In this document: positions 6,653 through 45,802 of the stretch, one piece after another
Numbering within the stretch: position 1 is the stretch's first letter
How the letters are laid out: the number at the start of each line of letters is the position of its first letter
Source: Bacteriovorax sp.
Lineage (GTDB): Bacteria > Bdellovibrionota > Bacteriovoracia > Bacteriovoracales > Bacteriovoracaceae
Direction of reading: 5' to 3'
DNA: 49,196 nucleotides
Assembly (NCBI GenBank): GCA_028710485.1
Contig: JAQTTZ010000018.1
Coordinates: 1-49,196, forward strand
Program-made: the position numbers and the translations under genes
Notes under the pieces: model-generated
Databases searched by the model: none
The model's input: only the letters and a program-made list of their open reading frames with translations
Told to the model about the DNA's origin: nothing

Positions 6653-8068
6653 TTAATTGTATAGATCTTGAATTTGATCAAGAGGTGTTAGGATTTTAAT
6701 TTTATTATTCCCTTTAAATACCCCAAGGGCACCTGATTCAAAATCAATAATGATATCTTCACCCTTTTCGATTTTCTCGTTGAAAATGCTCTCGACTTCT
6801 AGAAGGCTATAAATACTAATGCCATTAATCTTGGAAATAATATCGCCCAGATCGATATCAATATCTTCAGCAAAAGAGTTTAACGATACAAAAGTGACAG
6901 CTAATTTTCTTTTATCTTTGGCCAGAAGCTCGATAAAACGATCAAATTTTCCTGGAGAAAATTCAGCAAGGGCCTGAACAATAAGGAAATTTATTTCCTG
7001 AATAATCATTCCCTTAAAAGAAATAAATTTTCTTTTAAGCAGGTTGTTTGTTGTTCGCAAGTTTTGCTCAGGAAAGGGGAGCGCCTCTGCGGTTTTTTTA
7101 ATTCTTTGCCCACCTCGAATAATTTCTAAATCTATATTCGAATGTAGTGGAATAAGCCTTACAACATCATAAATGTTTTTGTGACGAAAAATATTTTTGG
7201 TTTTAACGATTCCGTGGGAATCAAATTCAAATTCATTGATTTTAAAAACAATATCTCGAGGCTCAAGACCTGCTTTTGCCATAAGGCCATTGGGGAACAT
7301 TGTCGTTATGATAACGCCGTCGCTAGTTGGTGATCTTAAATAAGCTGCGCTATTTTTAGAGTTTTTTTGAAAACGTCCCCCAAGATCAGTGAGGGCAGTT
7401 TCTTTTCCTTCAGTTAAATTGTGTAGAACAATTCTCACAAAACTAGCAGGAGTGATAAATCCAATATTGTTGGCATCTAATACAATGGAAGTATTGATAC
7501 CTATGATTTTTCCATCTTCGGTAACGGCAGGTCCTCCTGAATTTCCAGGATTAATGGCAGCGTCAGTAACGATTCTTTCGCATTCATCTTCTGATCCAAA
7601 AATAAAATTGGTCACTTTACCGGTGGAAATATTTGGCTCTTCCATACCAAGTGGATAACCAATGGCCTTGATGCTGAGATCTCTTTTAATTAAATCATCT
7701 CTTTCAAGTTCAAGGTAGGGGATTTCTCCGATCATCTTTTTCATGCGCAATAGTTCATGGGTGGGAAGTTTTAAAAGAGCGACATCTGGCTCGAGAGTTT
7801 CGATCATTCCGATGAGTATTACCTCAAAGTTTTCTTCACTGGTTAGCATTGTCCGGATTCTGTATTTCAATCCATTCTTCACCACATGGGCATTGGTAAG
7901 AATAAAGCCTTCTTCATTTTTTATTCGAATGAAGGACCCTGAGCCACTCCAATTACCGGTCCTTATGGTGCGTGGATCGAGAACTTCAAACAATTCTCCC
8001 TCATTAAGTCCTTCGACATAGATTTGGACTACGGCGCTGATGGCCTGCTCTAATTTTTTAGTTTTCAT
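6653..8068 (-). CDS. HtrA/Deg-family serine protease with PDZ domains, no signal peptide
   Basis: This 471-residue S1C-family protease has a trypsin-fold N-terminal domain with the triad His61 (TNAHVV), Asp95 (EPDVALL) and Ser177 (GNSGGP). A first PDZ-like domain follows at about residues 235-335 and a second, more divergent one at about 345-455. The N-terminus (MKTKKLEQAISAVVQIYVEG) carries no signal peptide or membrane anchor, unlike periplasmic DegP/DegS, so the sequence suggests a cytosolic location. The gene begins 7 bases after the yebC stop and probably forms a two-gene operon with it. The organisation with a weak second PDZ resembles the plant DEG9-type proteases, which is a family-level impression only. 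Confidence 0.85.
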   Translation of the reverse strand: MKTKKLEQAISAVVQIYVEGLNEGELFEVLDPRTIRTGNWSGSGSFIRIKNEEGFILTNAHVVKNGLKYRIRTMLTSEENFEVILIGMIETLEPDVALLKLPTHELLRMKKMIGEIPYLELERDDLIKRDLSIKAIGYPLGMEEPNISTGKVTNFIFGSEDECERIVTDAAINPGNSGGPAVTEDGKIIGINTSIVLDANNIGFITPASFVRIVLHNLTEGKETALTDLGGRFQKNSKNSAAYLRSPTSDGVIITTMFPNGLMAKAGLEPRDIVFKINEFEFDSHGIVKTKNIFRHKNIYDVVRLIPLHSNIDLEIIRGGQRIKKTAEALPFPEQNLRTTNNLLKRKFISFKGMIIQEINFLIVQALAEFSPGKFDRFIELLAKDKRKLAVTFVSLNSFAEDIDIDLGDIISKINGISIYSLLEVESIFNEKIEKGEDIIIDFESGALGVFKGNNKIKILTPLDQIQDLYN

Positions 8069-8075
8069 GCTTTAT

Positions 8076-8807
8076 TTAAGCATCGGCGAATGAATCGTCG
8101 TATTTGATGTTGTGATAAACTTTGGTCACATCGTCATCACTTTCTAGAAGATCGACTAATTTCATAACTGTTTTAAAGGTCTCTTTGTCGATTTCTTTAT
8201 AAGTGAGAGGAAGACGCTCAAGGCCCGCTTCTTCCGCTGTGATTTTTAATTGGTCGAGTTTACTTTGGATGACCCCAAAAGCTTCCATGGGTGCAGTTAC
8301 TGTGAAGTATCCGTCTTCTAAGATAACATCATCAGCTCCAACGTCGATCATATCGAGAGTGAAGTCGTCTTCAACTAGTTTTCCTTGTGGGATTTCAAAT
8401 ACAGCTTTGCGCTCGAATACGAATTGTAGGCAACCTGTTGTTCCAAGGGAACCACTGCACTTGTTGAAAAAGTTTCTGATGTTAGCGACAGTTCTTGTTC
8501 CATTATTAGTAGAGGCCTCAACGAAAATTGCGACACCGTTAGGTCCGTAACCCTCGTAAGCGATATCAGCGTATCCTTCATCTTCGTTTCCTAAACCTTT
8601 TTTGATCGCGCGATCAATATTGTCTTTTGGAACGTTATACTTGCGACTTTTTTCTAGAGCAATTCTTAGAAGAAAGTTACTTTCCACTGCTTCGCCGCCG
8701 TTTTTTACAGCTTTCGTGACTTCGCGAAGACATTTTGTGTACATCAAAGAGCGAATTTTATCTTGATCGCCTTTTTTTTCTTTAATATTATTCCACTTAC
8801 GTCCCAT
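8076..8807 (-). CDS. yebC: YebC/PmpR/TACO1-family protein
   Basis: The 243-residue protein has the YebC signature from its start (MGRKWNNIKEKKGDQDK..., normally MAGHSKWANIKHRK), then NVPKDNIDRAIKKG and YEGYGPNGVAIFVE, and a typical three-domain length. The family was described as transcriptional regulators and more recently as ribosome-associated factors that help translation of proline-rich or otherwise stalling sequences. The N-terminus departs from the usual GHSKW consensus (GRKWNN), as in a subset of YebC paralogues. It is the promoter-proximal gene of a pair with the downstream HtrA-like protease. Confidence 0.92.
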   Translation of the reverse strand: MGRKWNNIKEKKGDQDKIRSLMYTKCLREVTKAVKNGGEAVESNFLLRIALEKSRKYNVPKDNIDRAIKKGLGNEDEGYADIAYEGYGPNGVAIFVEASTNNGTRTVANIRNFFNKCSGSLGTTGCLQFVFERKAVFEIPQGKLVEDDFTLDMIDVGADDVILEDGYFTVTAPMEAFGVIQSKLDQLKITAEEAGLERLPLTYKEIDKETFKTVMKLVDLLESDDDVTKVYHNIKYDDSFADA

Positions 8808-8877
8808 ACAATCATCCTTATATTTGATTCAATATTTTTATGAGTTTAATGAATTTAGCACTTTTTACTGAATATGA

Positions 8878-40890: not shown

Positions 40891-42768
40891 ATGCTTGAAA
40901 ATAGAGTAATGGGAAATACAAAATTCAAAGAGTCAAGACCATCAAAAGAAACCAACAAAGAAAATTCCGGTTATCCAAAATTTAAAGAGATTGATGGTAG
41001 TCATCCTCTGAAAATCGCAGTTCCCGAAGCTGTCGTGGAGTACCAAGTACGCACAAGGCATGGGGGACAAGTTGCATTCTTTAACTTTGAACTGGCCATA
41101 GAGCTTGGCCTCATTCCAGAAAATCATTCCTACGAACTCACGAAAGAGTTAAAGGAAGAAATTCTTCAGACATTCAGTATCGTAATTATCAACGAGTACG
41201 ATATGATGAATAATTTCAATTATCCCAAAGAGGAAATTAGACCCAAGACATACATGGCCACTCGATATTTGCAACTTCAGCATCCTTGCAAGAAAGGAAC
41301 AACTTCTGGAGACGGGCGGAGTGTCTGGAATGGCCAGATTAATAACAAGGGAAAATCTTATGATGTCTCAAGTTGTGGAACAGGTGCTACAAAATTGAGT
41401 CCAGCTTGTAATATTAATAAAAAATTCTACCAAACCGGAGATCCAACTGTTTCTTATGGTTGTGGATATTCTGAAAAAGATGAAGGCCTGAGCTCTCTTT
41501 TTTTTAGTGAAGTCTTGGCAAAAAATGGACTAGAGACAGAAAGAGTTTTGGCAATCATTGAATTTCCAAAAGGCTTAGCGATTAATGTGCGCGTTCATGA
41601 AAATCTTTTGCGCCCTTCACATATGTTTAATCATCTAAAACAAAACAACCTACCAACTTTAAAAAGAGTGGTGGACTATTATATCGAACGCCAAATTAAA
41701 AATAAAATTTGGAAAAATGTTCCAACTGATCCTAAATCTCATTACGATTTTTTCTTAATGAAAATGGTAGAAACATTTGCTCAAATGTCTGCTAATTTTG
41801 AAGACCAATATATCTTCTGCTGGTTGGATTGGGATGGAGACAATATTTTAATGGATGGGGGAATCATTGATTATGGTTCTGTCAGACAATTTGGTCTTTA
41901 CCACCACGAATACCGTTACGATGATGTTCAAAGATGGTCGACATCGATAAAAGAGCAAAAACAAAAGGCCCGTTATATTGTTCAAACTTTTGCCCAAATT
42001 GTCGATTATATAAAAAATGAAAGAAAGAAGACAATTGATGATTTCAAAAATCACCATGCTATGCAAACTTTTGACAAGCAATTTTTTGATTTCAAAAATC
42101 ATAATATCCTGACAAAAATGGGATTTAATGCCAAGTACACAGAAACGCTTCTAGAGCATTACCGTAAAGAAGTTGAAGATTTTAGAAATGACTTCACCTA
42201 TTTTGAAATGGCAAAATCAGTAAAAGGTCTTCAAAAAGTTCCAGATGGAATTAATTGGAATGCTATTTTCTGTATGCGCGATATTCTCAGAGAGCTGCCC
42301 CAAGTCTATCTTTCGCGCGGAATAAGTGGCGTAGTAAGTGAAACGGAATTTATCGATATTATTAAGTCGAGTTATGCGACAAAAACAGATCTCAAAAGAT
42401 CTATAAGACGAAGCCTCAAAATTAGAAGTTTTCAAAAGAATTATATTAAACTAATTAATTTAGTCTCTAAAAAATTAAAAGAAACTCCAGAGAAAGTTCT
42501 TTTAGATGTTTCAATGAGATCATCGGTCATCAATAAATATGACCGCGTAACAGGGGATTCAATTTCCACCATTGTCGAAAAAGTGATGGCACGAAAACCA
42601 AAACTTTCGGCAGAGGATATTTCATTGATCTTAAAAGAGTTCACAGAATACCAAAATCTCAATCCCGATAAAGAGCGGAGACCTTCAAATTTTGAATCTG
42701 AAAAAGAGCAATCTCGAATGGTAAAAGGCATGCTTCAAATCGTTAGAGAGTATAGAGACGGGATATGA
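40891..42768 (+). CDS. SelO-related pseudokinase with Lys-to-Cys change
   Basis: The 625-residue protein aligns by eye with SelO/YdiU AMPylase pseudokinases over residues 120-345. Matches are GDGR (140-143), the glycine-rich loop CGTG (SelO KGAG), Glu198 in KDEGLSS (SelO IRESL), DGDN with Asn318 (SelO NTDN) and Asp327 in IDYG (SelO DYGPF). The residue that should be the ATP-binding lysine is Cys162. SelO's C-terminal redox Cys is absent and a C-terminal 250-residue extension is novel. Nucleotide binding may be altered. Two ATGs (40891 and 40909) are possible; neither has a strong ribosome site. Its end overlaps the peptidase gene by 4 bases. Confidence 0.6.
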   Translation: MLENRVMGNTKFKESRPSKETNKENSGYPKFKEIDGSHPLKIAVPEAVVEYQVRTRHGGQVAFFNFELAIELGLIPENHSYELTKELKEEILQTFSIVIINEYDMMNNFNYPKEEIRPKTYMATRYLQLQHPCKKGTTSGDGRSVWNGQINNKGKSYDVSSCGTGATKLSPACNINKKFYQTGDPTVSYGCGYSEKDEGLSSLFFSEVLAKNGLETERVLAIIEFPKGLAINVRVHENLLRPSHMFNHLKQNNLPTLKRVVDYYIERQIKNKIWKNVPTDPKSHYDFFLMKMVETFAQMSANFEDQYIFCWLDWDGDNILMDGGIIDYGSVRQFGLYHHEYRYDDVQRWSTSIKEQKQKARYIVQTFAQIVDYIKNERKKTIDDFKNHHAMQTFDKQFFDFKNHNILTKMGFNAKYTETLLEHYRKEVEDFRNDFTYFEMAKSVKGLQKVPDGINWNAIFCMRDILRELPQVYLSRGISGVVSETEFIDIIKSSYATKTDLKRSIRRSLKIRSFQKNYIKLINLVSKKLKETPEKVLLDVSMRSSVINKYDRVTGDSISTIVEKVMARKPKLSAEDISLILKEFTEYQNLNPDKERRPSNFESEKEQSRMVKGMLQIVREYRDGI

Positions 42769-43463
42769 AACTAGTTCTATATTCCGGAGGGACTGAAGAT
42801 GAAAATCGTTTTCTCAATTTGCGTGCATTAGAATTAACTCACGTTAAATCTCCTAAACTAACACTCATACCTTCAAGCTCTTATGATGCGGAAAATGACT
42901 TCAAGTTTTTTGTTCAAGAGTTTTCTGAGTTTGGTGTTCAGCGCTTTATGCTATTTTGTGTGGATACCCCCTATACTAAAACATTATTACAAGAAGTTCT
43001 TAAAAGTGACCTGATTTTCTTAGGTGGTGGAAATACCTTTTACTTTTTAAAGCATTTGAAAAAAGCGGGGATGTTTGCACATTTCGATAAGTTTTTAAAA
43101 CGCGGTGGAGTTCTATGTGGTCTTTCTGCTGGGGCAATCATCTTAACTCCACATGTACATACCGCCAGTTTTCCTCATTTTGATCGCGATGAAAATCCTT
43201 GGGATATGAAAAATCTTTCAGCAATGAGGTTGGTTAAATTTGAATTTTTCCCCCATTATAAAAATTCAAAACGATATGATGCTGAACTTCTCCATCATTC
43301 TAAAAAATCAAAGATCCCACTATATGGATGTTCAGACGGAGGAGGGATCATTATTGATGGAGATCAGATTTCATTTGTCGGAAAGTGTTTTCAGTTTTAT
43401 AGCGGAAAAAAATTATCTCTTGTTATAAATAAGCTGACTTTAAGAACAGAGGCCCATTCATGA
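42765..43463 (+). CDS. S51 family peptidase (peptidase E / cyanophycinase-like)
   Basis: The 232-residue protein has the S51 fold with GLSAGA (Ser121 nucleophile), GGGNT near residue 88, and FFPHY (His164), the layout of peptidase E (aspartyl dipeptidase), which is cytosolic. No signal peptide is present. The third triad member is not clear, perhaps Asp after His or the Glu/Asp near 145. It starts within the stop of the SelO-like gene and its end overlaps the protein-glutaminase gene by 4 bases, so it is made together with both. Peptidase E and cyanophycinase are hard to separate by eye; length suggests the former. Confidence 0.82.
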   Translation: MKLVLYSGGTEDENRFLNLRALELTHVKSPKLTLIPSSSYDAENDFKFFVQEFSEFGVQRFMLFCVDTPYTKTLLQEVLKSDLIFLGGGNTFYFLKHLKKAGMFAHFDKFLKRGGVLCGLSAGAIILTPHVHTASFPHFDRDENPWDMKNLSAMRLVKFEFFPHYKNSKRYDAELLHHSKKSKIPLYGCSDGGGIIIDGDQISFVGKCFQFYSGKKLSLVINKLTLRTEAHS

Positions 43464-45193
43464 AAAATTCGTTCTTGTTTTTACTTGTTTTCATGTCGTT
43501 GAATGCGAAAGCTTCTACAACTATTGAAATGGAAGGCAAAAGTTTAGATTGTGAAAAAAAATCTGAACAGATCTTTCACTGTAAAAACGCAAGTAGCAAA
43601 GTTTTAGTTGTTAAGAATTTTATGGGTTATATGGCCGTGGAAAAAAATGGCGACGAACTACCGAAGTCGAAGTGGCTCTCTAAAGTTGTTGATGACGATA
43701 AATTGCTATATGAGACTCCTAAGTTTCCTGGTTCTGGAGGAGGATATTCTGACAATCGTGAAAGCTCGGAGATGGAAGGTGAGATGCCCGGAGGGGATGG
43801 AGGGTATGGAGGAGGGATGGGAACTTACAAAATTCCCGATGATAAATCGAGACGTTTGTCCGAAGCCAATACAATTGTTGTTAATTTAAAAGATATCAAA
43901 GACAGCTGGGCCAGTGATTTTGTCGATGTTTCACAAAAATATATTACAGTACAATCTGTGAAAAGATCGCAACTTCAAATTAAAGATTACAACGGCGAAA
44001 TTTTTAATTGCAAAGAAGGGCATACAAGGAAATTAACAGTAGAAGAAGTTGCTTTTCAAGAACGTTATAATACAAAGATAGTGTGCAATTATTATTCTTG
44101 CTCTAATAAAGCAGGTGAAAAATCCCTCGCTTTTATCCCATCTCCCGCTTCAATGTCCGGTGGAGTAAGTTTTCTAAAGTTAAAGGCAGATAAAAGTGAA
44201 GTTCGTTATGATGGTTTTAAAGTTGTTGATACTGATGTTACACAGGTTGTCCCAATTTACGATATTCCCGCTTACCCCAAATACGATTTACCTGGTGGAT
44301 TCAAACCTGATTTCGATCAAAAATTATTGACTCCTAAAAAGTATCAAAATAATGAAAGTACATTTGATTATTTAACTAATCCAATGAATACTGCTAGCAC
44401 GGAGGAAGAAGAGAATTATTGTTATGGAGATAATGAAGTAAGAAAACTGATTGAAGAAAAACATCGTGTCGCAGATAAAATGAAAGAAGACTTGGCCAAT
44501 ACTGATCTTGCTCATTATTTGACGATGACCGACGGACAAATGGTATCACTCTTAGTTGATGTGGCCAAAAGTCATGACCTTGGTTGTCGCTACGAAAACA
44601 TGATTCTTTCTCCCTCGGCAGAGGCCCATTTAGATTATTTAAGAAAAGTAAAACCAAGGCCTGTTGAAAAATATTTATCTATTACTGAAGTGCAAAAACT
44701 TTTTAAGAAAGCAAAAAATATGTCAGACATACCATTTGGTTATAAAGACGATGGTTGTTATGCAAGAGCGCATGTCATGGCCAGAAGGTTTGAAGAGATG
44801 GGGATACCTACAGAGAAGGCCTGGATTAAAGGTTCTCTTTTTGTTCCAGGAACTGATATTAAATGGAACTACCATGTTGCCCCAGTGATTAATGTCAAAG
44901 ATAAAAAAGGTAAAATAAAAAAATATGTTATCGATCCTTCTCTTGCTGATAACGCCGTCACACTTGATGAGTGGGTTGAATCCATGGGAAAAAATGTTAA
45001 AGGGGGAGTGATGAAAACGCGTTATCCCTTTCCGGTTAATGCAGCTAATTTTCAGCGAACAGCAGTCGCCCTATCGTCTTCAGATGTCTACGTTCCAGAC
45101 AATGATGAAGTGAAAACGGAAGAGCAAAATATGGCGATGGCCATACAAACAATGAAAGAATACACTGCCGTTTTAAATGAAGGTAATAAATGA
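43460..45193 (+). CDS. Secreted protein with C-terminal protein-glutaminase domain
   Basis: The 577-residue protein has a signal peptide (about 1-19, MKNSFLFLLVFMSLNAKAS), a first 400 residues unlike anything I know including a Gly-rich stretch (about 93-120), and a C-terminal domain (about 405-545) matching the protein-glutaminase (protein deamidase) of Chryseobacterium. The triad is Cys433 (DGCYARAH), His472 (NYHVAP) and Asp492 (VIDPSL). Spacings of 39 and 20 residues resemble Cys156-His197-Asp217 of that enzyme. Such enzymes turn protein glutamine into glutamate and are made as pro-enzymes. The N-terminal region may be a pro-region or targeting part. It overlaps its neighbours by 4 bases each side. 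Confidence 0.8.
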   Translation: MKNSFLFLLVFMSLNAKASTTIEMEGKSLDCEKKSEQIFHCKNASSKVLVVKNFMGYMAVEKNGDELPKSKWLSKVVDDDKLLYETPKFPGSGGGYSDNRESSEMEGEMPGGDGGYGGGMGTYKIPDDKSRRLSEANTIVVNLKDIKDSWASDFVDVSQKYITVQSVKRSQLQIKDYNGEIFNCKEGHTRKLTVEEVAFQERYNTKIVCNYYSCSNKAGEKSLAFIPSPASMSGGVSFLKLKADKSEVRYDGFKVVDTDVTQVVPIYDIPAYPKYDLPGGFKPDFDQKLLTPKKYQNNESTFDYLTNPMNTASTEEEENYCYGDNEVRKLIEEKHRVADKMKEDLANTDLAHYLTMTDGQMVSLLVDVAKSHDLGCRYENMILSPSAEAHLDYLRKVKPRPVEKYLSITEVQKLFKKAKNMSDIPFGYKDDGCYARAHVMARRFEEMGIPTEKAWIKGSLFVPGTDIKWNYHVAPVINVKDKKGKIKKYVIDPSLADNAVTLDEWVESMGKNVKGGVMKTRYPFPVNAANFQRTAVALSSSDVYVPDNDEVKTEEQNMAMAIQTMKEYTAVLNEGNK

Positions 45194-45468
45194 AAAAATT
45201 ATTAGGATTGATTTTACTTTTAAATTTCCAAACGCTTAGTGCGGCCATGACAAAAGATTTTGTCGTTACAAAACTTAATTACAATTCAGAACAAAAATAT
45301 TACCAAGTTGATTTTAAAAATCAGGCAGGCGTCTATAAGGCCAGTGAAACACTTATTGATTGTTTGCGCGAGTTGCGTGAATCACTCAAAGAAAAAAAAC
45401 CAGTCAGAGTTATTTTTAAACCAATGGGATTAGCAATTACTTCATGCTCGAAGGTCTCGACCAAATAA
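45190..45468 (+). CDS. Small secreted protein of unknown function (92 aa)
   Basis: The 92-residue protein has a signal peptide (MKKLLGLILLLNFQTLSAA, cleavage about residue 19) and a mature part of about 73 residues with two cysteines (in DCLRELR and TSCSK) that could form a disulfide. No family is recognised. Its ATG overlaps the protein-glutaminase stop by 4 bases, so it is made in step with that exported enzyme and may be an inhibitor, chaperone or partner; this is inference. Its last 32 bases overlap the converging DUF454 gene. Confidence 0.75.
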   Translation: MKKLLGLILLLNFQTLSAAMTKDFVVTKLNYNSEQKYYQVDFKNQAGVYKASETLIDCLRELRESLKEKKPVRVIFKPMGLAITSCSKVSTK

Positions 45469-45802
45469 ATACTAAAACAAGAATTAAAATCACAGTCCCA
45501 GTTATTCTCAAGGCAAGAGTGACTTTCAAATAGGGTATTCGAAAAACAATAACCAGGCTCAACATGATGGTTGCAACTAGTTTTGCTTTTAATCCGATCA
45601 CTCCATTTTTTTCCCAGTCTCTAAGCGGTGGCCCTAGGTGTTTTTGATTGAGAATCCATAAGTGGAGTTTATTGCTTGATTTAGAATAACAAAAAGCTGC
45701 CAATAATAAAAATGGCGTTGTTGGAAGTACTGGAAGAACAGCTCCAATAACTCCCAAAACCAAACAAAGATGACCAGCAATCAGCAATAAAGTTTTTTTC
45801 AT
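45437..45802 (-). CDS. DUF454/YbaN-like membrane protein
   Basis: The 121-residue protein matches DUF454: an N-terminal hydrophobic segment with GVIGAVLPVLPTTPFLLLAAFCYSKSS signature positions, a short amphipathic middle (LRDWEKNGVI), and two further hydrophobic helices at about 72-90 and 95-113. It is an inner-membrane protein of unknown function. It sits 3 bases after the LysR-family gene on the same strand and its end overlaps the small secreted protein gene by 32 bases. Confidence 0.85.
   Translation of the reverse strand: MKKTLLLIAGHLCLVLGVIGAVLPVLPTTPFLLLAAFCYSKSSNKLHLWILNQKHLGPPLRDWEKNGVIGLKAKLVATIMLSLVIVFRIPYLKVTLALRITGTVILILVLVFIWSRPSSMK

Follow-up and report, generated by a model that had tools for sequence, protein, structure and literature searches.

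A contig of Bacteriovorax sp. (JAQTTZ010000018.1, assembly GCA_028710485.1, positions 1 to 49,196, the whole stretch being referred to here as the window) carries a block of four genes joined by three ATGA overlaps, encoding a SelO-like protein, an S51 peptidase, a protein-glutaminase and a small exported protein. Does this block represent one system, and what is the role of the small protein encoded behind the glutaminase? The genes and overlaps obtained by open reading frame calling and sequence reading, identical to those given in an earlier note on this DNA, were as follows.

40891-42768, forward strand: SelO-like gene (module A), 625 residues, a divergent SelO-fold protein with no evident signal peptide
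42765-43463, forward strand: S51 peptidase gene (module A), 232 residues, PepE/cyanophycinase-like, Pfam PF03575
43460-45193, forward strand: long glutaminase gene (module B), 577 residues, a predicted exported protein-glutaminase, PF18626
45190-45468, forward strand: small gene (module B), 92 residues, predicted to be exported, a probable stand-alone pro-domain homologue
42765-42768, forward strand: ATGA overlap of the SelO-like and S51 genes, 4 base pairs (bp), from sequence reading
43460-43463, forward strand: ATGA overlap of the S51 and glutaminase genes, joining modules A and B, 4 bp, from sequence reading
45190-45193, forward strand: ATGA overlap of the glutaminase and small genes, 4 bp, from sequence reading

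The gene identities were borne out by Pfam for the peptidase (Peptidase_S51) and the glutaminase (Gln_deamidase_2), and by profile comparison and predicted structure for the SelO fold. As described below, the block is composed of two independent gene pairs and not of one system. With a rough probability of 0.68, we consider pair B to be an exported protein-glutaminase and a propeptide-type inhibitor encoded in trans, situated behind an unrelated, conserved SelO-like/S51 pair.

Concerning the overlaps, a single ATGA is ordinary, as 4-bp overlaps were present in 91 of 544 co-directional adjacent pairs at loci other than the window (both genes of at least 100 residues, longest open reading frames, SelO-S51 pairs counted in). 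What goes beyond chance is that the overlap of the SelO-like and S51 genes is kept in relatives: it was found in 36 of 44 co-directional pairs, a set that includes the window, a second copy in genome G025 and, from two further family groups, three loci. The earlier note had taken all four genes to be one coupled unit. This had to be given up, since gene neighbourhoods in related genomes divide the block into two pairs with separate distributions. At 40 other loci of the family, selected across genera, the S51 gene was the next gene downstream of the SelO-like gene in 39, and pair A was complete without pair B in 36 (three have pair B and one is without S51). Among 129 family genomes, 105 had a SelO-like match; a close S51 relative (E < 1e-30, a cut that we set) was present in 98, all of which are within these 105, and the 24 genomes lacking a SelO-like match had none. 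Pair B was identified at 20 other family loci (19 full length and one, L105, truncated), where the four neighbours upstream and the five downstream that were covered include neither a SelO-like nor an S51 gene. Outside the family, an S51 gene follows the SelO-like gene co-directionally at L166, L167 and L174, lies divergently next door at L171 and L172 and two genes away at L173, and does not adjoin it at the remaining loci shown. No match to this S51 profile (E ≤ 0.001) was obtained in 11 of 12 tested genomes of groups f2-f10.

The two pairs are joined in this genus only. Among its 14 sampled genomes (G000 and G004-G016) the junction is intact in four (the window, L050, L051 and L052), in the same order. 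In G009 a contig end interrupts the glutaminase, and the downstream genes are the same as in the joined genomes. G008 retains a remnant of the long glutaminase directly after the S51 gene, with N-terminal and middle pieces only (L054, L038:6411-6725). Module B was not detected at that site at a significant E in the other eight; in G004 there is a 22-residue match just after the S51 gene at E 0.63, possibly a vestige or else a coincidence, and G011 has its SelO-like and S51 frames merged with each other. The tree of SelO-like proteins, built for 12 of the 14 genomes and with only moderate support at several forks, shows the joined genomes scattered within the genus. The gap between the S51 and glutaminase genes is not conserved, being -4, +15, -8 and +20 in the four joined genomes (longest open reading frame starts). 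The shared position, the G008 remnant and the scattered distribution suggest an old insertion followed by repeated loss, with repeated gain as the alternative.

These results bear directly on the possibility that the four genes do form one functional system, in which the SelO-like and S51 proteins would act, by modification or processing, on the exported glutaminase or on its targets. The tight overlaps in the window and the identical order in the three further genomes are what such a system would display. Nevertheless, we regard it as highly improbable, taking into account that either pair occurs without the other across the family, that the junction is scattered in the genus tree, reduced to a module B remnant in one genome and variable in spacing, and that the predicted compartments differ: signal peptides, judged by eye from the sequence, start the glutaminase and the small protein, and none is evident in the SelO-like and S51 proteins. 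A looser connection, in which pair B sits behind the promoter of pair A for simultaneous expression, for example during attack, without biochemical interaction, is given slightly less than an even chance. It agrees with the zero intergenic space and the same position in four genomes, and neither promoter-like sites (12, shuffles 15.8±4.1) nor terminator-like sites (2, shuffles 3.7±1.7) were in excess in the block; however, a pattern scan says little in either direction, and promoter-like sites do exist within the block. Shared expression of this kind is compatible with the inhibitor reading of pair B, and the two do not compete.

The components of pair B were then considered individually. The 577-residue protein matched Gln_deamidase_2 (PF18626) at residues 411-509 with an E of 1.6e-29 (102.7 bits versus a cut-off of 25), and aligned to Protein Data Bank (PDB) entry 3a54 at E 9.8e-12. 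Cys433, His472 and Asp492 were invariant in 23 of 23 long glutaminases. We therefore propose that it is a predicted exported protein-glutaminase, which would deamidate protein-bound glutamine with a Cys-His-Asp triad. Its N-terminal region of about 380 residues corresponds to no recognised family; in residues 20-400, cysteines 31, 41, 184, 209, 214, 321 and 376 were invariant in all 23. No pro-domain was recognisable in cis in the 23 long glutaminases, the best score with a pro-domain-like profile being 3.5 bits. Two further glutaminases are encoded in this genome, both with a small homologue beside them. In the open-licence PMC literature, the sole paper among the matches listed that joined glutaminase, Bdellovibrio and deamidation concerned a tRNA synthetase.

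What, then, is the small protein? No Pfam match above the cut-off was found for the 92-residue protein, and its family likewise gave no Pfam result. The 23 homologues accompanying long glutaminases share two invariant cysteines and a near-invariant Ala46...Tyr49 motif, and six partners of short glutaminases are without the cysteines and keep the Ala...Tyr motif. The protein-glutaminase of Chryseobacterium is made with a 114-residue pro-sequence (PMC6132073). We compared the small family with residues 1-114 of the pro-protein-glutaminase sequence, identical to PDB 3a56. The full small-family profile scored 14.9 bits against this pro-domain (best of 20,000 shuffles, 10.7), and the profile of the six short-glutaminase partners also scored 14.9 bits (best shuffle, 13.6). 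A comparison of the small family with the pro-domain using hhalign gave an E of 6e-4 (one comparison). The AlphaFold model of the small protein had a predicted local distance difference test score (pLDDT) of 82. When this model was compared by Foldseek with 350,542 PDB chains, ranks 1-3 were 3a54/3a56 (probability 1.00, E 6.8e-4 to 1.5e-3), with a root-mean-square deviation (rmsd) of 1.8-1.9 over 76 columns. Rank 4 was SilF (E 0.018, rmsd 3.9) and rank 5 was 8z3i, another protein-glutaminase (E 0.023, rmsd 3.0), below which were many OB-type folds with weaker scores. Ala46 of the small protein aligned with Ala47 of pro-protein-glutaminase, the residue replaced by Gln in 3a54 ('A47Q1 mutant of pro-protein-glutaminase'). 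The fold, the aligned Ala and the gene neighbourhood taken together indicate that the small protein is most likely a stand-alone homologue of the protein-glutaminase pro-domain, encoded as a gene of its own. A different origin, homology to part of the N-terminal region of its own glutaminase, was compared and rejected. Stand-alone pro-domain genes were sought in Bdellovibrionota genomes and in plasmid records; the plasmid records gave one match with the pro-domain sequence, to the catalytic end only. Among the matches listed in the open-licence PMC literature, none described a protein-glutaminase propeptide with a gene of its own. The 3' end of the small gene overlaps a convergent DUF454 gene (45437-45802, reverse strand) by 32 bp, at 45437-45468, and an overlap of equal length, 32 bp, is present at L051.

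The small gene accompanies the glutaminase well beyond the window. Of 24 long glutaminase genes, 23 are immediately followed by a small homologue, the 24th pair being truncated, and six of ten fetched short or other glutaminases have one beside them. Counting by coordinates in the family, a small homologue follows within 900 bp downstream at 37 of the 47 glutaminase places with the greatest similarity to the query (E to about 2e-12), and at 2 of the 81 weaker places at this sensitivity; the partnership thus belongs to the closer glutaminase subfamilies and not to all of PF18626. Seen from the other side, 41 of 51 small-gene places in the family adjoin a listed glutaminase. A profile search identified small homologues in 65 of 324 genomes of the phylum. 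Among 20 further small loci that we selected and fetched, a glutaminase adjoins ten and is absent beside the other ten. The unpaired genes at L212:3958-4278, L215:3989-4285 and L216:3958-4254 have neighbours like those at L185, L192 and L194, with the short glutaminase missing; two of the three genomes, G004 and G011, have glutaminases elsewhere and the third, G013, has no hit. Of the 40 paired copies, 35 have Ala at position 46, against 4 of the 11 unpaired ones (Fisher p 0.0015, kinship uncorrected, some unpaired copies aligning poorly); such a difference would be anticipated were the Ala important in the presence of a glutaminase. In family group f3 (L198, L200, L201 and L213), small homologues without an adjacent glutaminase have mutually similar neighbours. 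Tandem small genes were observed behind one glutaminase in L106 and in L217, and without a glutaminase in L211.

The earlier note had proposed the small protein as an inhibitor or a chaperone. The first of these is well supported by homology, and the second is disfavoured by the unpaired copies. In Chryseobacterium the enzyme is produced as a pro-protein without activity, which cleavage then activates, and propeptide cleavage raises the activity of a Bacteroides enzyme 17-fold (PMC13139226). The cut propeptide can stay bound, one report needing 4 M urea (PMC13139226), which implies that a pro-domain can act without a covalent link. In the mechanism that we envisage, the glutaminase and the small protein would each be exported by Sec, and the small protein would fold as an OB-like domain, the strand bearing Ala46 entering the substrate cleft at the position of the glutamine. 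The glutaminase would be kept inactive in the periplasm of the producer, and would become active once released away from the inhibitor or once the inhibitor is degraded. In a predator, self proteins would thereby be protected and prey proteins deamidated. The gene pairs, their distribution, the predicted folds and the conserved residues are what we observed; the inhibition of the glutaminase, the place of action, the role towards prey and any activity of pair A are inferred.

A number of observations weigh against this reading. The long-partner profile alone scored 8.7 bits against the pro-domain, second to one shuffle (10.3) of 20,000, and 3a54/3a56 were not among the entries listed when the small family was searched by sequence against the whole PDB, so that the sequence signal by itself is weak. 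The model of the small protein rests on four aligned sequences, and three of the five models were of low confidence (pLDDT 44-51). Four of the ten fetched short or other glutaminases have no adjacent small homologue, and all but two of the 81 weaker places likewise have none downstream; five of the 40 paired small copies are without the Ala. The Bacteroides pro-form is partly active with its propeptide attached (PMC13139226). That the source organism is a predator is judged from the names of its relatives: the nearest named relatives of the SelO-like protein, with 82-90% identity (10 of 17 loci), are in metagenome-assembled genomes labelled Bacteriovorax sp. or Bacteriovoracaceae bacterium. 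Finally, propeptides commonly aid folding, as stated for proteases in PMC3462683, and the small protein could be a folding or secretion helper that assists periplasmic folding of the enzyme before dissociating from it. The position of the gene just behind that of the enzyme suits such a helper, and the overlap would match the supply of the two proteins. Against a foldase, 10 of the 20 fetched loci have a small copy and no adjacent glutaminase, L212, L215 and L216 among them, with G013 harbouring a small gene and no glutaminase hit, and G004 and G011 having their glutaminases elsewhere. In the Chryseobacterium enzyme, moreover, the pro-domain that the small protein resembles acts as an inhibitor (PMC13139226). 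The persistence of small copies without an adjacent enzyme favours an inhibitor, and we consider the foldase improbable.

Gene pairs with a comparable arrangement are known. SpeB and staphopain keep their propeptide in cis, and Spi resembles the SpeB propeptide. Spi and the staphostatins are small inhibitors co-transcribed with cysteine proteases, and the Bacteroides C10 enzymes keep their propeptide in cis (PMC3462683), unlike the long glutaminases here. The SpeB/Spi, staphopain/staphostatin and Bacteroides C10 protease pairs resemble pair B in that the gene of a cysteine enzyme adjoins that of a small specific inhibitor, or here of a candidate for one. They differ in that Spi and the staphostatins are thought to be cytoplasmic, whereas the candidate inhibitor here is predicted to be exported and is itself probably a pro-domain homologue. 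A closer parallel in terms of compartment is Bd3460 of Bdellovibrio, which is exported, encoded downstream of an exported endopeptidase (Bd3459), binds and inhibits it, and shields the predator's wall (PMC4686830). In both cases an exported inhibitor gene, or a candidate for one, lies directly downstream of an exported enzyme that modifies, or may modify, prey, and the same periplasmic logic is proposed here; the families differ, as Bd3460 is an ankyrin protein that inhibits DD-endopeptidases. The closest likeness at the level of the proteins is the pro-protein-glutaminase of Chryseobacterium proteolyticum (PDB 3a56; A47Q mutant 3a54), whose Cys-His-Asp catalytic domain corresponds to that of the long glutaminase and whose pro-domain resembles the small protein in its fold and in the Ala47/Tyr50 positions. 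In that enzyme the pro-domain belongs to the same chain and is removed once secretion has taken place (PMC13139226), whereas here it would be the product of a separate downstream gene with its own predicted signal peptide, and the enzyme bears a different, long N-terminal region. Pair B would follow the logic of the known enzyme-inhibitor pairs with a different inhibitor, one derived from a propeptide. We also raise, as a tentative and rather unlikely extension, that Bdellovibrionota use exported glutaminases against prey or rivals, each with a detached propeptide as a periplasmic immunity protein, and that unpaired propeptides give protection from the enzymes of relatives or of rival predators. 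The zymogen inhibitor would in that case have been split off as a separately evolving immunity gene.

Concerning pair A, the earlier note had described the 625-residue protein as a protein-AMPylation-type pseudokinase. The SelO-like fold stood, and the AMPylation type became doubtful. The protein matched the NCBIfam YdiU/SelO model at E 9.7e-10 (38 bits, under the cut-off of 431), and hhalign against a canonical SelO profile, built from eight SelO proteins of the phylum of which seven are from this genus, gave an E of 4.5e-12 over 330 columns. PDB sequence searches with the protein or its profile gave a chance match only (E 0.95). The AlphaFold model (pLDDT 66.7, with low-confidence stretches including region 164-191) had nine PDB matches by Foldseek at E ≤ 0.001, eight of which are titled SelO/YdiU; rank 1 was 6iii, titled only 'uncharacterized protein'. 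Profile comparison and predicted structure thus agree that the protein has a SelO kinase-like fold. Among the residues whose roles have been described in SelO, Lys113 and Glu136 hold the gamma-phosphate (PMC8097203). In 72 of 72 homologues, from loci selected across the phylum, neither Lys nor Glu occurs at the columns aligned with Lys113 and Glu136, these columns resting on alignment through region 164-191, where the model is poor. Arg176 and Arg183 (phosphate), the metal Asn and the DFG-type Asp were invariant in all 72. The absence of the catalytic Lys and Glu renders canonical AMPylation doubtful. The protein could still be an active AMPylase if other residues took the place of the Lys and Glu in space, and the SelO fold of the model, with both phosphate arginines, the metal Asn and the Asp kept in all 72, would suit this. 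We consider it unlikely in view of the missing pair, albeit read from columns in a low-confidence region, and of the canonical SelO encoded elsewhere in the same genome (C159), which indicates that the SelO-like protein is a separate family. Compared with the SelO/YdiU AMPylase (PDB 6eac, 6lna), it shares the fold, phosphate arginines, metal Asn and Asp, and differs in having no equivalents of Lys113 and Glu136, in being longer and in being paired with an S51 peptidase. Of 324 Bdellovibrionota genomes, 199 contain a match to the family at E ≤ 0.001, several of these matches being weak and possibly canonical SelO. The SelO-like match at L045 (Bacteriovorax sp. DB6_IX, about 7001-8829) is not in a single frame, with 31 stops in the named frame; this could reflect two frames joined in the listed match, or else a disrupted gene or assembly. 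No paper dealing with SelO together with Bdellovibrio was found in the open-licence PMC literature.

The partner of the SelO-like protein, the 232-residue product, is a Peptidase_S51 (PF03575, E 1.2e-27), with profile matches in the PDB to 3l4e, 7c9b and 1fy2. Ser121, His164 and Asp191, which we take to be its catalytic residues, were invariant in 32 of 32 sequences. S51 enzymes cleave small Asp-containing peptides. At 12 loci outside the family, mostly in groups without an S51 partner, we also noticed an ATP-grasp-like protein of 368-434 residues beside or near the SelO-like gene. Examples are the following, in addition to nine further loci.

L154:5595-6791: ATP-grasp-like gene
L160:8909-10051: ATP-grasp-like gene
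L164:8889-10079: ATP-grasp-like gene

Two of three members tested gave weak matches, below the cut-off, to TTL and YheC/D models. The peptide specificity of S51 enzymes and the ATP-grasp-like gene nearby raise the speculation that pair A belongs to a peptide or amino-acid modification pathway. Whatever its activity, pair A would consist of a cytoplasmic SelO-fold protein, keeping the ATP- and metal-binding residues but not the Lys-Glu pair, that acts with an S51 peptidase.

These results define a SelO-fold family without the SelO Lys-Glu pair, which in some groups of the phylum is linked with an S51 peptidase. If the inhibitor reading of pair B is true, the pro-domain of a zymogen can be freed from its enzyme and act in trans as a secreted inhibitor. 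Pair B would then join Bd3459/Bd3460 as the second candidate for a system of self-protection in a lineage of predators, and protein deamidation would be a possible prey-handling activity.

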